This document shows positions 1,084-27,484 of a stretch of 36,212 nucleotides of DNA, piece after piece (within the stretch, counting starts at the first letter, position 1; every line of letters begins with the position of its first letter). Under the pieces are notes generated by a model. It was not told the origin of the DNA. It was given only the letters and a program-made list of their open reading frames with translations, and did no database searches. Source of the DNA: a bacterium (GTDB lineage Bacteria; SZUA-79; Acidulodesulfobacterales; Acidulodesulfobacteraceae); NCBI GenBank assembly GCA_021789605.1, contig JAJYJI010000019.1, positions 1 through 36,212 of the forward strand. The letters are read 5' to 3'. The translations under genes were made by a program, and so were the position numbers.

Positions 1084-2190
1084 TTATTTCTTCTTAAACA
1101 CATCCTCAACGGCTTTTCTTAATGTTTCCGGCACCAAATGACTATATCTTTTCGTCATCTGTGTAGTCCTGTGTCCTAACAACTCGCCGGTAATGTATAG
1201 CGATGTTCCGTTCATCACCATTTTAGAAGCGAATACGTGCCGTAAGTCGTGAATGCGCATATCTTTCAATCCTGCATTTCGGCAGGCGGTATGAAAAGAC
1301 CTTTTAAAGTCTGATATTTTTTTGCCGGAGTAATTAAACACATACTCGCAATTTTGTATTTTCGCTTCTGCACTTCTAGGTGGCGGGGGAGTTTTGGCTA
1401 TATTTTCTTTAGAACTTTCTATTTTTTCAATACCTGTTAAAAGTTCTTTTAGTTGCGAATGTATCGGTATATGCCTATCGTATTTTGTTTTGGCGGCTTT
1501 TATAGCTATTACGTTATTATTTAAATCCACATCGTCCCATTTAAGATTAAGAGCTTCACCCTTGCGGCAGCCAGTGTAAATTAGAAAGCTGATTAAATCC
1601 TTTGAGAGCTTGTTCGTGGCGCCGTTAATTAACTTACTTATATCTTCGTCGGATAAGGTTTTAAGCCGGGATAGTTCATTAAGTTTTTTAATTTTTAAAG
1701 CAGGATTATTATTAGTATAGCCTTTTTCAATACAATAATTGAAGAAATTAGAAAGCGTTCCAATTTCCATATTGATGGATCTAAACGATATTTCGTTTTC
1801 TCTTTTGCTAGCGTTTTTAGGCAAGTCTATTATTTCAAGTTTTCTTGTAAGCTGATAGTTTTTAATATCTGCCGTTGTTATGCTGGATATGTTTCTGTCT
1901 TTAAATACAGGTAAAAAATGTTTTGATATAAAAGTTTTTAGTTCGACAGTGTTTCGCGAATTGGATAAAACGGATAGATATTCTTTGAAAAGTCTTTCAA
2001 AATTAAGGTCATAACCGTTTGCTGCCGGTAACTGATATTTTTTCCTTGCAAGGTCAGTTTCTATTGCATTAGCTATCTGTTGAGCCGTTTTGCGGTCTTG
2101 CGTCTTGCATGAGCCCTGATAATGATTGCTGTTTAACGATACGGAATAGTAATAAACTTTGCTATTATTTTTCTGATAGATACTTGCCAT
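1084..2190 (-). CDS. Site-specific tyrosine recombinase (integrase)
   Basis: This phage/island-type integrase acts by a tyrosine-linked strand exchange. In the 368-residue form, an N-terminal Arm-type domain is followed by a SAM-like core-binding domain at about 65-165. The catalytic domain has Arg209 in YTGCRKGEAL, a Lys near 234-236, HDLRH (His314, Arg317), His340 in LLGHRTT and the nucleophile Tyr349 in KRYSHL. All expected residues are present, so it looks intact. I chose the ATG at 2190 because an AAGAAGG ribosome binding site lies a normal distance before it. The upstream in-frame GTG at 2202 overlaps that site. The Pro-rich stretch near 268-272 (TPPPP) sits in a loop before the HxxR box. 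The gene lies about 200 nt beyond the 3' end of tRNA-Ala, the usual layout of an element integrated into a tRNA gene. Confidence 0.93.
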   Translation of the reverse strand: MASIYQKNNSKVYYYSVSLNSNHYQGSCKTQDRKTAQQIANAIETDLARKKYQLPAANGYDLNFERLFKEYLSVLSNSRNTVELKTFISKHFLPVFKDRNISSITTADIKNYQLTRKLEIIDLPKNASKRENEISFRSINMEIGTLSNFFNYCIEKGYTNNNPALKIKKLNELSRLKTLSDEDISKLINGATNKLSKDLISFLIYTGCRKGEALNLKWDDVDLNNNVIAIKAAKTKYDRHIPIHSQLKELLTGIEKIESSKENIAKTPPPPRSAEAKIQNCEYVFNYSGKKISDFKRSFHTACRNAGLKDMRIHDLRHVFASKMVMNGTSLYITGELLGHRTTQMTKRYSHLVPETLRKAVEDVFKKK

Positions 2191-2258
2191 AGCTTTATTC
2201 ACCTTCTTTTAAGCGTAAATAATTTAATAGCTATTATGTATAATTTGTCGCTATTGAG

Positions 2259-2333
2259 TTGCTACCTGCTATTTTAATGATAGCAATCAGTAGCAATATG
2301 GTAGCAAACATATGTCATATTTTGTCATATTTT
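2259..2333. repeat. Phased short repeats between integrase and tRNA (candidate arm/Xis sites)
   Basis: TAGCAA occurs at 2281, 2291 and 2302, about one helical turn apart. Inverted copies (TTGCTA at 2259 and TGCTAT at 2267) face them. They are followed by two tandem 10-mers, TGTCATATTT, at 2313-2322 and 2323-2332. Direct repeats phased at 10-11 bp beside an integrase are typical of arm-type integrase sites or excisionase sites in an attL/attR region. They could also be operators controlling the integrase gene. The functional assignment is inference. Confidence 0.5.
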
Positions 2334-2400
2334 TGCATTTATTGTCAAGTTAAAGTTTTTTAAAAATACCGGCAAGGTTCTTATTTACTGCGGTTTTAAA

Positions 2401-2476
2401 TGGTGGAGCTGATCGGGGTCGAACCGACGACCTCTTGCATGCCATGCAAGCGCTCTGCCAACTGAGCTACAGCCCC
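2401..2476 (-). tRNA. tRNA-Ala (anticodon GGC)
   Basis: The reverse complement folds into a full cloverleaf of 76 nt with an encoded CCA end. The acceptor stem is GGGGCTG paired with CAGCTCC with one G-U pair. The D arm contains AGCTCAGTTGG. The anticodon stem CTTGC/GCAAG encloses a 7-nt loop with GGC at the anticodon position, and the T arm contains GGTTCGACCCC. It reads GCC/GCU alanine codons. Its 3' end faces the integrase, so it is the likely integration target. The gene itself is intact. Confidence 0.97.
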
Positions 2477-7669: not shown

Positions 7670-9145
7670 TTAACCTTTTTTCGCCTTTTTAGGATTCACC
7701 TTGTGAATAGCTTCTCCGATTGAATCTAGAGCGGATTCTGGAACTATTTCCGAAAGAGTCGGATGCGAGTGTATAGTCGCTTCTATATCGAAAACCGTTC
7801 CGCCGAAGTGCATATATGACGCTATTTCTGCAATAAGTTCCGGAATGTCCGCGCCGATTCCCGTGGCTCCTAGAATTTTTTTTGTTTTCTCTTCGGCGAT
7901 TATCTTTAAAAAGCCGTCGGACTCTTCCATGGCCAGAGCCATTCCGCTTGCGGCGTATGAAAATCTGCCGGCATTATAGGATATTTCGGAGAGTCCTGCA
8001 TCTCCTTCCTTTAAACCCACCGTCCCTATTGGGGGATTCGTATAAACGGACCACGGAAGCACTCCGTAATCTTTTTCCCTGACTTTTCCGGCAATATTGT
8101 CCGCCGCCAGAATTCCGTCGTACGATGCTTTATGCGCCAGCATCGGTCCGTCTATTATATCGCCGCACGCATAAACGCCCTTAACGGTTGTTTCGTTATG
8201 AATATCCGTTTCTATTTTCCCCCTGCCGTCAATTTTCACGCCGATTTCTTCCAGCCCAAGACCTGCGGTATTTAATTTTCTTCCTATGGAAACAAGCACC
8301 ATTTCCGCTTCAAATTTTTCTCCGGTTTTTAAAACGACTTCCGCCCCACTTTTTGCGTTTTTATTTTTATGTCCGCCGTTTTCGCCTGCCTTAAAATTCA
8401 AAGGAGCGACGCTTTTAATGCTGTCGACTTCCGTTCCGGTCATTATATTTATGCCTCGGGACTTAAAATTTTTATGGATAAAGCGGGAAATTTCTTTGTC
8501 TTCCGTGGAAAGTATGGAAGGCAAGAGCTCTATCATTCTGACCTCGGCTCCAAATTCAGAAAAAATATTGGCGAATTCGCATCCTATAACGCCTGCTCCT
8601 ATTATAACCAGAGATTCGGGTATTTCGGTCAAAGAAAGCGCTTCGTCGGAAGTTATTATATTTTCGTGGTTTATATTGAACGCCCCGAACATCAGAGGGG
8701 AAGAACCGGTAGCTATAATGACGTTTCTTGCAAAAATTTGATTTTCCGCTTCTTCATCAGAAGCAATGTTAATATAAAACCCGCCGCCGCCGTCTTTGCC
8801 GGCAATTTTACCGGTTCCGTAATAGATATTAACTTTTCTTGCTTTTAAAAGTTTTTCCACTCCGTCCGTAAGATTTAAAACAACTCTGTCCTTATAATTT
8901 ATTATTTCTTCGTAATTAAAATTAAATCCGCTTATAGAAAAACCGTATTCCGGTTTTTTAAGCCTGCTCAGATATTTTGCCTTTGAATATATTACTTTCG
9001 TCGGTATACATCCCCTGTTCAGACATGTTCCGCCGAACCTTTCCTTTTCGACTATTGCGACGGACAGGCCGTTTATAGCCGACTTTAACGCGCCGACATA
9101 TCCGGCGGGACCGCCTCCGATAATACATACGTCAAAACTTTCCAT
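7670..9145 (-). CDS. lpd: Dihydrolipoamide dehydrogenase (E3)
   Basis: This FAD-dependent flavoprotein disulfide reductase reoxidises dihydrolipoyl groups with NAD+. The 491 residues contain the FAD-binding GGGPAG at 10-15 and the redox disulfide Cys41-Cys46 in GGTCLNRGCIPTK. The NAD-binding GAGVIGCEFANIF lies at about 182-194, followed by VYACGDI. The catalytic His-Glu pair is in the C-terminal HSHPTLSEIVPES. A Gly/Lys/Asn-rich insert (about 254-268, GENGGHKNKNAKSG) lengthens the protein slightly. It sits between tsaE and lysC, where many relatives have nothing, and not beside a 2-oxoacid dehydrogenase. With two lipoyl carrier genes about 18 kb away, it may serve those carriers, but that link is inference. 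Confidence 0.93.
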   Translation of the reverse strand: MESFDVCIIGGGPAGYVGALKSAINGLSVAIVEKERFGGTCLNRGCIPTKVIYSKAKYLSRLKKPEYGFSISGFNFNYEEIINYKDRVVLNLTDGVEKLLKARKVNIYYGTGKIAGKDGGGGFYINIASDEEAENQIFARNVIIATGSSPLMFGAFNINHENIITSDEALSLTEIPESLVIIGAGVIGCEFANIFSEFGAEVRMIELLPSILSTEDKEISRFIHKNFKSRGINIMTGTEVDSIKSVAPLNFKAGENGGHKNKNAKSGAEVVLKTGEKFEAEMVLVSIGRKLNTAGLGLEEIGVKIDGRGKIETDIHNETTVKGVYACGDIIDGPMLAHKASYDGILAADNIAGKVREKDYGVLPWSVYTNPPIGTVGLKEGDAGLSEISYNAGRFSYAASGMALAMEESDGFLKIIAEEKTKKILGATGIGADIPELIAEIASYMHFGGTVFDIEATIHSHPTLSEIVPESALDSIGEAIHKVNPKKAKKG

Positions 9146-22146: not shown

Positions 22147-22602
22147 TTAATCGCCACGGTCGAACGATATTTCAAAATACGACCTATTTTCTATCATATT
22201 ATGAACGGGACATCTTTTCGAAACTCTTTGCAGTTCTTCGAGCTGGTCCTCGTCGAGATTTCCGATAAGTTTGATATTTTTTTCTATTTTGTGAACGTAG
22301 CCCCTTTCGTTGCCCGTTTCTATGCCGGATTCTTTTATTTCTTCCGCTCTAACCCTTTTGTGGGTTAAGTTTACTTCCACGCCCTGCAAATCGTACTTCA
22401 TTCTTTTCGCAAACATCATGAGGACGGAAATAGTGCATGCGCCTTCGGCGCCAAGAACAAGCTCGACTGGATTGACGGCTAGTCCTTCCCCTCCCGAATC
22501 TTCGGGTTCATCCGTTATAAGCGTATGTTTTTCGGTAATAATCTGATTTTGCAAATTGCTCAAATGTTTTACTTTTACTTTGACCGATTCGGATTCCGTC
22601 AA
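22147..22602 (-). CDS. OsmC/Ohr-family protein
   Basis: The 151-residue protein has the OsmC fold signature. NPVELVLGAEGACTISVLMMFAKRM (about 43-67) carries the first redox cysteine, and VSKRCPVHNMIENRS (about 126-140) carries the second. Typical members are thiol-dependent peroxidases for organic hydroperoxides, but many stand-alone members have unknown sulfur or persulfide roles. The start is TTG at 22600-22602 with GGGGTG upstream. No earlier ATG exists and the next Met is at about 62. It follows the LipS1-like gene by 62 nt, so it belongs to the lipoate operon. A thiol/sulfur-handling role in that pathway is inference. Confidence 0.85.
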   Translation of the reverse strand: MTESESVKVKVKHLSNLQNQIITEKHTLITDEPEDSGGEGLAVNPVELVLGAEGACTISVLMMFAKRMKYDLQGVEVNLTHKRVRAEEIKESGIETGNERGYVHKIEKNIKLIGNLDEDQLEELQRVSKRCPVHNMIENRSYFEISFDRGD

Positions 22603-22664
22603 TTATAGCACCCCGCTAATTTTATTTTTTTCCGCCTGCCTTGTCCTATTTTGTCAAAATCATT

Positions 22665-23765
22665 TTAATCGTATTCTAACAATTCCTTCCTGACCCGGTT
22701 TATGTCGCACGTTTTAAGTTCGAACGGAAAACTTCTTATATTTTTAGGCGAGGAATCGCCGAAAGGCCTGTTGCACGCGGAAATTTCGGATTTTCCGGGA
22801 CAGCCTGTGGTTCGGAAAGCCGCGCCATTCTCGATTATTTCGGCGACGGTTTTAAATGGCACTCCAAAATCCACTACTTTGCCGTATTCGTTAAATTTCA
22901 TGTCTTCGGCCTTTCCGATGTCATAATCTATTATATGCCTTGCAACCTGAATGCGCCTGTAATGTCCCGCCGGACACTGCGGATGATTTTCAAGTTTAGA
23001 GCCTTTTTCCCTATAGAAAGAAAACAGATGCGACCTTGCGCCCTTATTTCTAACGGACTGCATCCTGAGAACCATTTCCTTCTCCGTTTCGCCCAGACCG
23101 GCTACAAGATGGCATCCGACCTTATTTTTTCCAAAAACGAAAACCGAATATTCCAGTATATCGTTGTATTTTTCCCATCTGTGCGGACCTCCGACGCATC
23201 TTCCCCTGTATTTGTCGAACAATTCCGGGGTTGCCGCGTCCAGCGCGACCGTTACCATGTCTGCACCGTAGTCTTTAAAGCGGTCTATATCTCCGCGCTT
23301 TAATATCGTGGGAGTCATAAGTATGGAAACCGGACAGTGCAGTTCGTTTGCAAATCTTTTTAAAACGGCAAAAGTATCGTCTTTCGCCTTTTCATGAGTA
23401 ATCATAGATATGCATATTCTATCGACTAAGTTCTTTTTTTTAACAGTGGATTCTATAATATCGTCCGTCCTGAACGCAGGCCAATCGACCCTGATAAAAC
23501 TTTTATCGTTATACCTGCCTTCCCTTGATTTTTGAAGTCCGCAATACGCGCAGTTAGCCCTGCATCCTTCATCGTAGGTAAGAAGAACGTTTATGCAGTG
23601 CAGACAGGCATTGCGGTAGAAAATCCCCGGCACAAAATCCAAAGTCATTGCCGCCGCAAGGCTTACTTTTAAATATTCCGGCGAACCGCGCCTTTCAGAG
23701 TTTCCGGCGCATTCATAATCGGCCGTATCGGCTTTATCCGCGATGATTTCATTCGATTCATCCAT
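22665..23765 (-). CDS. lipS1: Radical SAM protein, LipS1-like lipoyl synthase subunit
   Basis: The 366-residue protein belongs to the biotin/lipoyl-synthase-like radical SAM group. The cluster motif CxxxCxxC is Cys68-Cys72-Cys75 in GCRANCAYCGLQKS, preceded by Cys54 and Cys57 (CLHC). Near the C-terminus FRTTGCPG and SACNRPFGD supply further cysteines that could hold an auxiliary Fe-S cluster as sulfur donor. LipS1 and LipS2 together insert the two sulfurs into octanoyl-carrier proteins in Thermococcus and in sHdr-type sulfur oxidisers. Which of the two radical SAM genes here is LipS1 is my judgement from motif recall. It starts 5 nt after the ligase stop, so translation is coupled with the ligase. 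Confidence 0.7.
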   Translation of the reverse strand: MDESNEIIADKADTADYECAGNSERRGSPEYLKVSLAAAMTLDFVPGIFYRNACLHCINVLLTYDEGCRANCAYCGLQKSREGRYNDKSFIRVDWPAFRTDDIIESTVKKKNLVDRICISMITHEKAKDDTFAVLKRFANELHCPVSILMTPTILKRGDIDRFKDYGADMVTVALDAATPELFDKYRGRCVGGPHRWEKYNDILEYSVFVFGKNKVGCHLVAGLGETEKEMVLRMQSVRNKGARSHLFSFYREKGSKLENHPQCPAGHYRRIQVARHIIDYDIGKAEDMKFNEYGKVVDFGVPFKTVAEIIENGAAFRTTGCPGKSEISACNRPFGDSSPKNIRSFPFELKTCDINRVRKELLEYD

Positions 23766-23770
23766 ATAAT

Positions 23771-25318
23771 TTATACGCCTTCTTTAAATATTTTAAATAA
23801 AACGTTGACGCCCAAAGATGCCTCGGCGTCAAACGAACCTTTATAGGCATCTTCTTCTTTGCCGTATTTATAACATAGGGGGGACGATATGTCTATTAAA
23901 AGAGCCTTTATTCCGCTTTCTTTGAAAGCTTCGTTTCTTTTTATATAAAATTCCCTGCAGCAAAATCCTATATAAGATTTAACGTTTTTATCCTTCATTT
24001 CGTTCAGCGTATCTATAAGGTTTTCGTAATTTACAACGGTTTTAGGTTTAATGCCGCGCCTTTCGGCAAATTTATAAGCTATCCCCGTTTCGCAGTCCCC
24101 GCATGATATGCATTCGTCTTTATTTCTGTATTCGCAGTCCTTTTTTTTTGCGCAATAGGGCAAAAGGATATATTCGGCCGACGAAATATCTTCGGGAGTC
24201 ATTCCGTTTGCGAAAATAAATCTCGATAAAACTTCTTCTTTGATTCCGGTGTTTTTAGAAAAATTAACCTTATTGATAATCTGGATAACGATGTTAAAAA
24301 AATCTTCTTTTCCGATATTCTGAAATTCAGGATTAAATTTTTCGAAATAATCGTCTATTTTAAATACGGCTTCGTTTAAAGGCGTATCCTTAAGCAAGCT
24401 CTCTAAATCGTTTATAGCCCTTGCAGGAGAAACGAAATAATCTCCGGTAAAATAAATATATTTCAATAAATTTCTTTTTGCATCGACCTTTGCGTAAGTC
24501 CTGAAAAGCCCTCCGCCGCATTGATAGGTTTCCGAAACCATTTTTGTTTTAACGGGGTCGAATTCATTTGAATAAACCCACTCTTTCGACCCGTAAAAAG
24601 AACGGTTTTCCTTTAAAAAATTTTCTTCCTCCGTCGAGAGTTCCGATTCGTAAAAATTTAAATCTAAATGCTCTTTGAATCCCGAAAGAATAACGGATTT
24701 AATCAAATTTAGACCCGGCATATATCCTAAAACGCTTTTAACGGAGGTTATCCTTGAAAGAACGGAATCAAAATTTTTAGACGTCAATTTTTCGACGGGA
24801 ATTTTTAAAGACCTGACCATATTTTCTGGATTAAAATCTAAAAGCAGCGTTCCTTGAAAAAAATAAACCGAAGATTCGTATGTACCGCCGGTTCCAGAAA
24901 TCTTGCGGCCTTCCACCTCTATATCGTTTCTGGGTCTAAATTTCGCATTAATTCCAAGTTTACCGATTCCTTTAGCAAAAGCCGTACAAATATTTTCCGT
25001 CAGATTTTCAAGGCTTTTCATTTTAATGCTTTTAGAAGAAAATACAAGCTCCCAGCCAATCTGCATCTCGTCAAAATATATCGCTCCTCCGCCGGTAATT
25101 CTTCTTCCTATGTCAATGCCCTTTTTTTCGCAGAAATCGCGCCTTACTTCGCTGAACACGGATTGATGATATCCGGTGAGAACGCAGGGTTTGAACCTTA
25201 AAAAACGGAAAGTATCTTCTATTAATCCCTCTTTCCTGAGCTCTAAGAGGGATTTATCCATGCATATATTATATGAAAAATCGTTTAATCCGGTGTCTAT
25301 AACCCTGAACTTATTCAT
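23771..25318 (-). CDS. Lipoate-protein ligase fused to a cysteine-rich DUF116-like domain
   Basis: The 515 residues form three parts. Part one (about 1-250) is a biotin/lipoate ligase catalytic domain with RRITGGGAIYFDEMQIGWEL (about 68-87), GRKISGTGGTYES and FQGTLLLDFNPENM. Part two (about 265-365) resembles the LplB/C-terminal accessory domain (TYQCGGGLFRTYAKVD). Part three (about 375-515) is cysteine-rich: LPYCAKKKDCEYRNKDECI, SCGDCETG, YIGFCCREF and SSPLCYKYG, matching the DUF116 pattern as I know it. The ligase would adenylate octanoate or lipoate and load the LbpA lysines. The third domain may bind an Fe-S cluster or supply sulfur; that is inference. The start is ATG 25318, with a 139-nt spacer to the LipS2-like gene. 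Confidence 0.8.
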   Translation of the reverse strand: MNKFRVIDTGLNDFSYNICMDKSLLELRKEGLIEDTFRFLRFKPCVLTGYHQSVFSEVRRDFCEKKGIDIGRRITGGGAIYFDEMQIGWELVFSSKSIKMKSLENLTENICTAFAKGIGKLGINAKFRPRNDIEVEGRKISGTGGTYESSVYFFQGTLLLDFNPENMVRSLKIPVEKLTSKNFDSVLSRITSVKSVLGYMPGLNLIKSVILSGFKEHLDLNFYESELSTEEENFLKENRSFYGSKEWVYSNEFDPVKTKMVSETYQCGGGLFRTYAKVDAKRNLLKYIYFTGDYFVSPARAINDLESLLKDTPLNEAVFKIDDYFEKFNPEFQNIGKEDFFNIVIQIINKVNFSKNTGIKEEVLSRFIFANGMTPEDISSAEYILLPYCAKKKDCEYRNKDECISCGDCETGIAYKFAERRGIKPKTVVNYENLIDTLNEMKDKNVKSYIGFCCREFYIKRNEAFKESGIKALLIDISSPLCYKYGKEEDAYKGSFDAEASLGVNVLFKIFKEGV

Positions 25319-25457
25319 TATTAATTATTATATAATATGCGGTTATATTTATATGCGGTTCCGCTTTAAAGGCTGACGGCGCATAACGTTTTCTCTAAGC
25401 TGACAAGCCGAACTGATATGGCTATTGCGCGCCCTTAAATTTATCCGAGGGATTAGG

Positions 25458-26462
25458 TTATCCGTTAATTTCCGACGCCGCCGGTAAAATCGTTTCGGAA
25501 AAAATTAAGGAACAGCACGCTTCGGAAAATTTTGGCTTTAATCCCAGTCTTACGCTGAAAGGTATAATTCCCTCCGAAGGATACGCTATGCCGTTTAATC
25601 CGGACTTAACCGCCAGCTCTTCGATTTTAAACTTGTTTAATCCATACGGCCTTTCGCATCCTAAAAGAACAGGAATGTCCGTAAATTTTTTACGGGCATA
25701 CAGAAATACGCCGCCGATTTCTTCAGGCTCGGGGGGGACCGCATTTTGCATTTTAGTATTATGCATAGGCATAAAACCTACCAGAACCAGCGAAGAAATA
25801 TTATACTTGGAAATAATATCTATTGCGTTATATTCGCCGGCAATAAGGCCGCGTTTCAATCCGATTACTACATGCGGAGAGCAGGGTATCCCTCTTTCGG
25901 ATAAGCGTTTCAGCGAATTGTCGTAATCTTCTACGGTTGCGTTGAGATGATATATTTTTCGTATAGTATCTTCGTCGCCGATAATATCGAGCATCGCGGA
26001 ATCGACGCCTGCATCCGAAAGCCCGTCGGCTATCTCCTCGGTAATAAGTCCGCAATGAACTATAACTTTAATACCGAAATCGAATTTAATTCTTTTTATA
26101 ATATCGACGTAAGGAAGTATATCGACTATGCCTTTGCTGTCGGAACCGCCGCTCAATAAAAATCCTTCGCCGCCGGATTCGCATATAGCCCGGGCTTTTT
26201 CGTAAAGGTCGTCCGGCGTAAGCGCCGGGGCCATTGATTTTAATATTTCCGCATTGCAGTGTTCGCATTTTAAGGAACATGAATTTCCAGTTATGGAAAA
26301 CGGGAGAAAAGAAGATGATTTATTATTTTTAAAATCTTCGGTTTCGTAGGATTTTATGCCAGGAGCGTAAAAATGCATTTCCGAATCGAAATGCGTTTTT
26401 AAAATATTAAAACCTTTTGAATATTCTTCGTTTATTTCTTCGTTAAATTCATAGAAACTCAT
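25458..26462 (-). CDS. lipS2: Radical SAM protein, LipS2-like lipoyl synthase subunit
   Basis: The 334-residue protein has the radical SAM CxxxCxxC at Cys62-Cys66-Cys69 in SCSLKCEHCNAEILKSM. A SAM-binding glycine-rich patch GGEGFLLSGGSDSKG and a C-terminal barrel with LVLVGFMPMHNT and LLGCERPYGLNKFKIEELA follow. The C-terminus has Cys residues (EACCSLIFSE) that may ligate a second cluster. It begins 6 nt after the second lbpA stop, showing tight co-translation with the carrier. Other radical SAM sulfurtransferases remain possible, but the neighbours (lipoyl carriers, ligase, second radical SAM) point to lipoate assembly. Confidence 0.7.
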   Translation of the reverse strand: MSFYEFNEEINEEYSKGFNILKTHFDSEMHFYAPGIKSYETEDFKNNKSSSFLPFSITGNSCSLKCEHCNAEILKSMAPALTPDDLYEKARAICESGGEGFLLSGGSDSKGIVDILPYVDIIKRIKFDFGIKVIVHCGLITEEIADGLSDAGVDSAMLDIIGDEDTIRKIYHLNATVEDYDNSLKRLSERGIPCSPHVVIGLKRGLIAGEYNAIDIISKYNISSLVLVGFMPMHNTKMQNAVPPEPEEIGGVFLYARKKFTDIPVLLGCERPYGLNKFKIEELAVKSGLNGIAYPSEGIIPFSVRLGLKPKFSEACCSLIFSETILPAASEING

Positions 26463-26468
26463 ATATAA

Positions 26469-26915
26469 TTATCTCTTCTTGCAGATTATATCTTCCTTTT
26501 CAAGCTTTTTAACATATGCGCTAACGGCTTCTTCCCCGGTTGGAAGGGATTTTATATCCGATGCGGCTTCTGGAAGCGGCTTAAACTTTACAATCCAGCC
26601 TTTGCCGTACGGGTCCAAATTAATAATATGCGGGTCGTTTTCCAATTCTTCGTTTACTTCCGCTATTTCGCCGGTAAAAGGCATGGGAAACGGACCCACG
26701 TATTTTCCGCTTTCTATGGTTGCGGCGCTTTTGCCCTTTTTTATTATTTTTCCTGCGGATTTAACGTCTATATAAAGTATTTTTCCTGCTAAAGATTGGG
26801 CGGGGTCGGTCATGCCGAGCGTAAAAGTGCCGTCGTCGTTTTTTCTGCCCCAAACCTGATTTTCTATATCGTAATACAGGTCTTCTGGAATATTGCATCC
26901 GTTAAAAATTGACAT
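26469..26915 (-). CDS. lbpA2: GcvH-like lipoate-binding protein, second copy (LbpA type)
   Basis: The 148-residue carrier has the lipoyl fold with the modified lysine Lys71 in SAATIESGKYVGPFPMPF. It shares FNGCNIPEDLYYDIENQVWG with the LbpA subfamily rather than with glycine-cleavage H proteins. PFTGEIAEVNEEL and LDPYGKGWIVKFKP follow, as in LbpA. It differs from the first copy in the linker and in a longer C-terminal tail. LbpA proteins serve the sHdr sulfur-oxidation complex. No glycine-cleavage genes (gcvT, gcvP) are near. It lies 61 nt downstream of lbpA1 and 6 nt upstream of the LipS2-like gene. Confidence 0.87.
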   Translation of the reverse strand: MSIFNGCNIPEDLYYDIENQVWGRKNDDGTFTLGMTDPAQSLAGKILYIDVKSAGKIIKKGKSAATIESGKYVGPFPMPFTGEIAEVNEELENDPHIINLDPYGKGWIVKFKPLPEAASDIKSLPTGEEAVSAYVKKLEKEDIICKKR

Positions 26916-26976
26916 TTATATGCTCTCCCGGTTTTTGTCTTTTTGTAGTTTGCACCGCGGTTATATTATATATTTA

Positions 26977-27414
26977 TTATTCGCATTTAATTCCTTCCGA
27001 TTCTATCTTTTTCTTGTATGCTTCTATAGCCTCTTTGCCGGTAAGAAGATTTTTTTTATCTGCGTCTATATTGTCGGCTTTAATTTTACATACCCAACCC
27101 TTTCCATAAGGGTCCGAATTTATAAGAGAAACATTTTTAACGGCATCGTCGTTAACGGCGACTATTTCGCCGGAAAACGGGGCAGGAACTGGGCCGACAT
27201 ATTTGCCGCTTTCAACCGTAGCGACAGACTTAAGCTGAGCAATTTTCTGTCCCAATTTTTTGGGGGTAAGATATAAAAGTTTGCCGGCCAAACTCTGAGC
27301 TACGCTCGTCATGCCGACCGTAACTATTCCGCCGTCGTCGACTTTTCCCCATACATGTTTTTCTATGCTGTAATACAAGTTTTCGGGAATATCGCATCCG
27401 TTGATTTTAGACAT
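26977..27414 (-). CDS. lbpA1: GcvH-like lipoate-binding protein, first copy (LbpA type)
   Basis: The 145-residue protein begins SKINGCDIPENLYYSIEKHV. That is the typical LbpA opening, including the conserved Cys7. The lipoyl lysine is Lys71 in KSVATVESGKYVGPVPAPFS. The strand pattern continues with SGEIVAVNDDAV and NSDPYGKGWVCKIKA. Relative to glycine-cleavage H protein it has ESGKYVGP in place of ESVKAAS. It is the first gene of the operon, with its own promoter (27456-27484) and a strong AGGAGG. Its substrate complex, probably sHdr, is not encoded in this window. Confidence 0.9.
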   Translation of the reverse strand: MSKINGCDIPENLYYSIEKHVWGKVDDGGIVTVGMTSVAQSLAGKLLYLTPKKLGQKIAQLKSVATVESGKYVGPVPAPFSGEIVAVNDDAVKNVSLINSDPYGKGWVCKIKADNIDADKKNLLTGKEAIEAYKKKIESEGIKCE

Positions 27415-27455: not shown

Positions 27456-27484
27456 ATAATACTACAATTTTAAATTATTCTCAA
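27456..27484 (-). promoter_or_regulatory. Sigma-70-type promoter of the lbpA-lipoate operon
   Basis: On the minus strand TTGAGA (27479-27484) is followed after exactly 17 nt by TATTAT (27456-27461). The start would lie about 35 nt before the lbpA1 ATG. The 15 bases ending in the -10 (AAATTGTAGTATTAT, 27456-27470) are the same as in the tRNA-Ala promoter at 2525. Confidence 0.65.

Follow-up and report, generated by a model that had tools for sequence, protein, structure and literature searches.

A probable LipS1/LipS2 lipoate-assembly cluster for LbpA carriers in Candidatus Acidulodesulfobacteriota, with a DUF116 domain on its ligase

Here we describe a six-gene cluster on the minus strand of contig JAJYJI010000019.1 (GenBank assembly GCA_021789605.1), a stretch of 36,212 nucleotides that we call the window. 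The cluster very probably encodes the known sLpl(AB)-LipS1/LipS2 type of lipoate assembly, serving two LbpA carriers of an sHdr system in a member of Candidatus Acidulodesulfobacteriota. The pathway at its core is known; for this lineage, we found no report of it in the open-licence literature. The wider interest lies in the cysteine-rich DUF116 domain at the end of its ligase, which is shared with many other organisms and tied to LipS1/LipS2 in part of these systems, rather than in what is peculiar to the window.

The cluster and its organism

The window is contig C22 of a 2.0-Mb assembly of 87 contigs, with an estimated completeness of 99% and a contamination of 5.21%. Its closest matches include Ca. 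Acididesulfobacter diazotrophicus and isolate SZUA-79, which places it in a family of Ca. Acidulodesulfobacteriota (hereafter the family), a bacterial group known in acid mine drainage; the organism itself is uncultured. Between positions 22147 and 27414, the minus strand carries lbpA1, lbpA2, lipS1, a lipoate ligase gene, lipS2 and osmC, in that order. Pfam assigns GCV_H to two of the products, Radical_SAM to two and OsmC to one, and finds LplA-B_cat, a weak Lip_prot_lig_C and DUF116 in the ligase. The features are as follows (aa, amino acids).

26977..27414, minus strand: lbpA1, GcvH-like carrier of 145 aa (GCV_H, 122.9 bits), with predicted lipoylation at Lys71 (ESGKYVGP)
26469..26915, minus strand: lbpA2, second carrier of 148 aa (GCV_H, 125.6 bits), with Lys71
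25458..26462, minus strand: lipS1, radical SAM protein of 334 aa (NF053742, 223.4 bits), putative C6 sulfur step by analogy
23771..25318, minus strand: ligase gene, LplA-LplB-DUF116, putative octanoate/lipoate:protein ligase of 515 aa (Pfam/NCBIfam, model)
24614..25318, minus strand: LplA catalytic part of the ligase, aa 1-235 (RRITGGGA and Lys139 kept)
24269..24571, minus strand: LplB accessory part, aa 250-350 (sub-cut-off profile matches and 3r07_C)
23774..24256, minus strand: DUF116-like domain, aa 355-515 (PF01976; Cys 389, 395, 403, 406, 409, 453, 454 and 482)
22665..23765, minus strand: lipS2, radical SAM protein of 366 aa (NF053743, 211.1 bits), putative C8 sulfur step by analogy
22147..22602, minus strand: osmC, OsmC-family protein of 151 aa (PF02566, 51.9 bits), with Cys56 and Cys131

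An earlier reading of the window from its letters alone (the sequence-only reading) had the genes, strand and coordinates right, as recomputed open reading frames (ORFs) and Pfam/NCBIfam domains confirm. It overstated how tightly the genes are packed: most steps were said to be coupled by spacers of 5-6 nt, and the five spacers measure 61, 6, 139, 5 and 62 nt, tight at two junctions. The order lbpA1-lbpA2-lipS1-ligase-lipS2-osmC is repeated in the family loci inspected, and is thus more than chance.

LipS1 and LipS2

Both radical SAM proteins find their best NCBIfam match in the expected model, LipS1 or LipS2. In a tree of 88 rows, picked with models derived from window-family sequences and holding no characterised sequence, 47 LipS1 rows form one group (96/94) and 40 LipS2 rows another (100/99), with the window proteins inside. 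The rows comprise the window, the other loci and the genome's own BioB, and were proteins of 240-450 aa whose best match was LipS1 or LipS2 at more than 60 bits. Nine rows above the curated cut-off anchor the LipS1 group, while no row of the LipS2 group lies above its cut-off. Within the limits of these anchors, the tree gives no sign of the placement outside LipS1/LipS2 that the sequence-only reading had named as fatal to it. Of 30 family genomes, 27 have LipS1 at E <= 1e-20; of 356 genomes of other bacteria, 14 do.

The cysteines agree with this assignment. The CX3CX2C motif is kept at C62/66/69 in 46 of the 47 LipS1 rows and at C68/72/75 in 39 of the 40 LipS2 rows, with one gap in each case. 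The auxiliary cysteines C269, C316 and C317 of LipS1 (47/47 rows) and C118, C322 and C331 of LipS2 (40/40) are invariant. In the Thermococcus kodakarensis proteins, the auxiliary clusters are held by C230, C276 and C277 of LipS1 and by C85, C276 and C279 of LipS2 (PMC9585515), and these ligands have counterparts in the window proteins. The last two LipS2 cysteines are 9 residues apart in the window protein and 3 apart in T. kodakarensis.

The scores pull the other way. The window LipS1 reaches 223.4 bits against a cut-off of 230 and the window LipS2 only 211.1 against 270, and the LipS2 of another cluster of LbpA, ligase and LipS genes (genome G070) also falls short, at 217.2 bits. LipS1 orthologues in two family members (G018, 234.8 bits; G012, 230.4 bits) do exceed the cut-off. 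By analogy with the T. kodakarensis pair, LipS2 would insert sulfur at C8 first and LipS1 then at C6, and each would use up its auxiliary [4Fe-4S] cluster in doing so. The lipS1 and lipS2 genes of T. kodakarensis lie more than 130 genes apart, unlike the clustered genes of the window, and their products were assayed on peptide substrates (PMC9585515).

The LbpA carriers and their probable sHdr client

LbpA1 and LbpA2 are 55% identical, and both hold Lys71 in an ESGK motif. In a 34-row tree, they fall in an LbpA clade of 13 rows (100/99), together with Nitrospirota LbpA-like proteins, proteins from two other loci and a third LbpA-like protein of the same genome (contig C7). This clade is separate from the one with the genome's own two GcvHs, which are encoded on contigs C6 and C12. 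Around the C12 GcvH, the genes read as gcvT and as two parts of gcvP; the C6 GcvH adjoins a transferase whose motifs suggest that it is LipM-like. On sequence grounds, the window carriers are LbpAs: GcvH-like proteins with a predicted lipoyl-lysine, distinct from GcvH, encoded beside lip genes here and beside shdr genes in six relatives. The gene of the third carrier (L023:8174-8623, ESGKWVGP) has neighbours that read, by sequence, as a membrane hydrogenase/Nuo-type complex and as hemerythrin-like and ArsR-like genes.

The sHdr genes follow the order shdrC1B1AHC2B2, and contig C87 of the window's genome carries C1-B1-A-H-C2-B2 in this order, with H named by position only and without a family match. 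The best PDB match of the C87 sHdrA is 6tjr, which we take to be sHdrA of Hyphomicrobium denitrificans, nearly full length at E 3.9e-81. Of 30 family genomes, 28 have the B1 gene of this set (two via fragments), as against none of 31 others. In six relatives (L122, L124, L126, L134, L135 and L137), a second shdr-like set lies directly upstream of lbpA1, preceded in L122 by a gene for an ArsR-type regulator. In family loci, this second set shares 35-46% identity with the first; it has no recognisable H gene, and its HdrA (L134) resembles methanogen HdrA about as much as it does 6tjr. Its B1 is present in 13 of 30 family genomes, and a sequence search did not find it in the window's genome.

With shdr genes on C87, and adjacent to lbpA1 in six relatives, the central claim of the sequence-only reading, a LipS1/LipS2 lipoate-assembly set around LbpA in an sHdr organism, is supported. 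The duplicated carrier that it listed as distinguishing is not new, since Tanabe 2023 covers three LbpAs from two species, plus an LbpA2 (PMC10332631). Once lipoylated, the carriers would act in sHdr sulfur oxidation. One point speaks against this last step: members of these bacteria have been described as potential sulfate reducers, perhaps also sulfide oxidisers (PMC6776010), which leaves some doubt over the direction in which sHdr runs. The same work treats the phylum via dsr and sqr genes, and its top-20 transcript lists for Acidulodesulfobacterales name 'hdrB2', 'hdrC2', 'gcvH' and 'sqr'. The first three of these, which are listed there under methane and glyoxylate metabolism, could be genes of sHdr and LbpA.

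A general lipoyl route or a dedicated one

Could the operon instead be the cell's general lipoyl route, with LipS1 and LipS2 finishing octanoyl-GcvH as well as LbpA? No LipA over cut-off was found in the window's genome, despite its 99% estimated completeness, the genome holds only two LplA-B_cat proteins, and genes reading gcvT, gcvH and two gcvP parts stand together on C12. However, among the 19 of 30 family genomes taken into the LipA search, LipA is present in 15, above the curated cut-off in 12 and just under it in 3. The idea of a LipA-free lineage was therefore rejected. In relatives, lipA precedes genes for an aminotransferase, a homoserine dehydrogenase and a PALP-type protein that reads as threonine synthase. 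Homoserine dehydrogenase has no match in the window's genome (in a search run without a positive control), and the aminotransferase has a 42% match only, which we take to be a paralogue. Because two lipA neighbours are missing as well, an assembly gap probably explains the missing lipA. Two further points argue against a general route, namely the LipM-like protein (labelled from its motifs) beside GcvH on C6 and the failure of sLpl ligases to recognise lipoyl proteins of organisms without sHdr-LbpA (PMC10332631).

We regard a general route as quite unlikely. The lineage most likely keeps the canonical route for GcvH next to the LipS1/LipS2 route for LbpA, judging from its gene content; co-occurrence with LipA is common among LipS1/S2 bacteria (PMC10332631). 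Of the genome searches that the sequence-only reading had proposed, the one for shdr genes thus turned up the C87 set, and the one for lipA came back empty in the window's own genome yet positive in 15 of 19 family genomes.

The ligase and its DUF116 domain

The LplA part of the ligase scores 141.5 bits against LplA-B_cat, above the cut-off. The RRITGGGA motif and Lys139 are presumably its catalytic motifs. The LplB part scores below the cut-offs (17.9 bits against 24 for Lip_prot_lig_C, 28.6 against 65 for the NCBIfam LplB model), and matches 3r07_C, a chain deposited as ligase subunit 2, at E 4.5e-4. The full-length protein was modelled with a mean pLDDT of 89.2 and a pTM of 0.69. Going by its family, motifs and relatives, the LplA-LplB part would activate octanoate or lipoate with ATP and attach it to Lys71 of LbpA1 and LbpA2.

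The final ~160 residues match PF01976 at 28.4 bits (gathering score 25), and the same family is matched by 61 of 61 aligned DUF116 domains at E <= 0.001. A profile comparison to stand-alone DUF116 gives a probability of 97% (E 6e-11), with the cysteine core aligned. Stand-alone DUF116 proteins (PF01976, arCOG02078) share the CX5CX(7-10)CX2CX2C core and a later cysteine with the window domain but, unlike the window protein, have no ligase part. Seven of the eight cysteines are present in all 76 ligases and the eighth in 96%, in a count that takes 76 of 79 ligases and excludes three partial ones; the alignments comprise the window and 60 of those 76. The domain alone (aa 350-515) is modelled as an alpha/beta domain with a mean pLDDT of 90.5 and a pTM of 0.86. 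The same genome encodes a second, canonical DUF116 on C1, beside genes reading as fmt and def.

DUF116 has been considered before in other contexts. A 2015 comparative study proposed a flavodoxin-like fold and a role in electron transfer for the stand-alone form, and its main text does not use the word lipoate (PMC5898192); the sLpl paper (PMC10332631) does not mention DUF116. We found no link of DUF116 to lipoate in a literature search confined to open-licence papers, so that its absence in print is unproven.

Spread of DUF116 ligases and their linkage to lipS1/lipS2

Ligases with LplA, LplB and DUF116 parts, 37-47% identical, occur in Nitrospirota, Actinomycetota, Thermodesulfobacteriota, Chloroflexota, Aquificota and several archaeal phyla. 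We took the best 80 of 563 loci, ranked by likeness to the fused ligase, with search patterns in the LplA part. All three domains stand together in 79 of 82 ligase-like ORFs, a share biased by this ranking. Neighbours were counted at >=50 bits, that is at least 50, within four genes on either side and on either strand, in loci that were not selected for their neighbours. The models for LipS1, LipS2, OsmC and LbpA derive from the window family, and the 'LipT-like' query was a single flavoprotein of the geranylgeranyl reductase superfamily from genome G060, so these labels can err. Three loci were dropped, one at a contig end (L139) and two in which overlapping ORFs displace the fused ligase (L186 and L196); the latter two hold all three domains, plus LipS1- and LipS2-type matches.

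Within the family, 18 of 19 loci have a ligase with LplA and DUF116, and in these LipS1 or LipS2 lies within four genes in 18/18 and a carrier in 16/18. A ligase, in part or whole, is found in 27 of 30 family genomes; 10 of 31 others give some match, full-length only in G060. Outside the family, with 17 Aquificota loci set apart, 42 fused-ligase loci remain (L141-L201; Nitrospirota, Actinomycetota, Bathyarchaeota, Thermoplasmatota and others), all with the same three-domain ligase as the window. LipS1 or LipS2 lies within four genes in 33 of them, as in the window, and an Aquifex ligase at a contig end (L153) is counted among the misses. Across all 59 outside loci, 57 LipS matches fall 1-4 genes from the ligase (among 385 genes) and 1 farther away (among 271 genes). 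The 17 Aquificota ligases are longer (>700 aa), with LplA, LplB and DUF116 parts; the sole long ligase scanned, from Aquifex (L145), has an extra C-terminal CO_dh domain (PF02552).

The sequence-only reading had also set the window apart by its DUF116-like fusion. A fusion unique to the window cluster was rejected, given the many bacterial and archaeal phyla that have such ligases, though they do not accompany all LipS1/LipS2 clusters. The opposite extreme, that LipS1/LipS2 systems include DUF116 in general, was rejected as well: among the LipS1 loci of 14 non-family genomes, from an unselected sample of 356, there is not one DUF116-like match.

What does the DUF116 domain do?

T. kodakarensis LipS1 and LipS2, supplied with ferredoxin and NADPH, reach only 1-1.5 turnovers (PMC9585515), and what reduces or renews these enzymes is a question that the DUF116 ligases make testable. 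We tentatively favour a redox role, which we consider possible but short of probable: the C-terminal domain would hold one or two Fe-S clusters and pass electrons from a LipT-type flavoprotein to LipS1 and LipS2. A LipT-like flavoprotein gene lies within four genes of the ligase in 26 of the 42 outside loci. In Bacterium BMS3Abin01 (L176:7977-10697), a single ORF of 906 aa joins LplA, LplB, DUF116 and a LipT-like flavoprotein.

Several observations count against this role. The LipT-like gene is found within four genes in 0/18 family loci, unlike the outside loci; homologues do occur elsewhere in family genomes, where a flavoprotein tree leaves their orthology to LipT undecided. The DUF116 model has no PDB or BFVD fold match at E <= 0.001, so that the case for Fe-S binding comes from the cysteines. 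Within four genes of the ligase, LipS1 and LipS2 are absent from the 17 Aquificota loci and from 9 of the 42 others, in counts that cover the neighbourhood and not the rest of these genomes. In G060 (89% complete), the fused ligase lies on a contig of 3.3 kb, and a search at E <= 1e-20 finds no LipS1. Finally, the 0/14 result means that LipS1/LipS2 can work without DUF116. By our models, only two of these 14 LipS1 loci have a ligase match (G070 and G347), a 352-aa ligase beside LbpA, LipS2 and LipS1, and a Pfam search of six genes that neighbour LipS1 in other clusters found no DUF116. LipT itself is present in about 53% of LipS1/S2 bacteria and so is not obligatory (PMC10332631).

The 0/14 result lowered our estimates for a redox role and for the broader picture given below, and raised that for another role, in which DUF116 would serve as a scaffold or binding module, docking LipS1 and LipS2 on the loaded carrier and doing no redox work. 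Fusion and neighbourhood alone would fit such docking, as would the DUF116-free ligases beside lipS1/lipS2 in G070 and G347 and the 14 of 14 sampled outside LipS1 loci without DUF116. Docking alone, however, has no need of eight cysteines that are among the most conserved residues, seven of them in all 76 ligases, and we think it rather unlikely. Slightly better placed, though still unlikely, is the proposal that DUF116 rebuilds the auxiliary clusters spent by LipS1 and LipS2, in the manner of NfuA and with no passing of electrons. It would account for the eight conserved cysteines and the tight linkage to lipS1/lipS2, and the two enzymes do sacrifice their auxiliary clusters, with only 1-1.5 turnovers (PMC9585515). 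However, the flavoprotein fusion of L176 and the LipT-like genes in 26 of 42 loci suit electron transfer better, and T. kodakarensis LipS proteins received their clusters in vitro from SmsBC, not DUF116.

If the electron-input role holds, a broader picture can be drawn, which is speculative and somewhat doubtful as a whole. In a large subset of LipS1/LipS2 systems, archaeal and bacterial, the DUF116-ligase would be one station that attaches octanoate and feeds flavoprotein electrons into LipS2 and LipS1; in the window family, this station would have lost its coupling to LipT and gained an OsmC that makes use of the finished carriers.

The OsmC partner

The OsmC partner noted in the sequence-only reading is real within the family, where osmC lies within four genes of the ligase in 16/18 loci; elsewhere it does so in 0/42. 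The two cysteines expected of an OsmC/Ohr lipoyl-dependent peroxidase are present, as Cys56 and Cys131, and are invariant in 15/15 family rows. Tentatively, and with no more assurance than for the redox role of DUF116, we propose that OsmC is a peroxidase that would remove peroxide with dihydrolipoyl-LbpA as its electron donor. A dihydrolipoyl dehydrogenase is encoded at 7670-9145 of the window, minus strand, ~13 kb from the operon (TIGR01350, 475 bits against a cut-off of 408.8). It is a possible candidate, from its family match, for the reductase of lipoyl-LbpA and OsmC.

A stronger version of this idea would make the carriers GcvH-like parts of an OsmC lipoyl peroxidase, with sHdr not their client. 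The linkage of osmC in 16/18 family loci and the dihydrolipoyl dehydrogenase in the window are in keeping with it, and PMC10332631 lists a reference whose title concerns OsmC with an incomplete glycine decarboxylase complex in Trichomonas. However, shdr genes lie directly upstream of lbpA1 in six relatives, and OsmC is missing from the four-gene neighbourhood in 2/18 family loci. We consider this version improbable, and retain carriers that serve sHdr.

Relation to described systems

The window's genome shares LbpA, an LplA-LplB ligase, LipS1, LipS2 and shdr genes with H. denitrificans and Thioalkalivibrio sp. K90mix (PMC10332631). The Thioalkalivibrio order is lipS1-slpl(AB)-lipT-lipS2 (PMC10332631); the order of lipS1, ligase and lipS2 is alike in the window, but lipT is absent from the window cluster. 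Compared with the sLpl systems of that paper, the window has DUF116 on its ligase and an added osmC, and it comes from a different phylum. Compared with the fused-ligase loci outside the family, it shares the LipS partners (33/42) and differs in osmC, which none of the 42 has within four genes.

These findings bring sHdr, LbpA and LipS1/LipS2 together in a phylum described via dsr and sqr (PMC6776010), and connect DUF116, a domain family of no assigned function, with lipoate assembly in some of the LipS1/LipS2 systems of bacteria and archaea.

Other features of the window and its genome

Promoter-like sites are not in excess over shuffled sequence in the window (21 against 17.7), nor are terminator-like sites (8 against 8.1). 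One weak promoter-like site, of a class not above shuffles, lies upstream of lbpA1:

27456..27484, minus strand: promoter-like site, TTGAGA-17-TATTAT, 10/12 matches

Two diverged copies of a region reading argF-argG-argH...radA...dapA-dapB are present in the genome (L249 on C3 and L250 on C19). Given this duplicated arg/dap region and the 5.21% contamination, the bin is probably a mixture of two strains or species. An Rfam scan of the window finds one tRNA. Near its left end (1084-2476, minus strand), a phage-type integrase gene lies beside a tRNA gene (2404-2476), which may mark an integration site.

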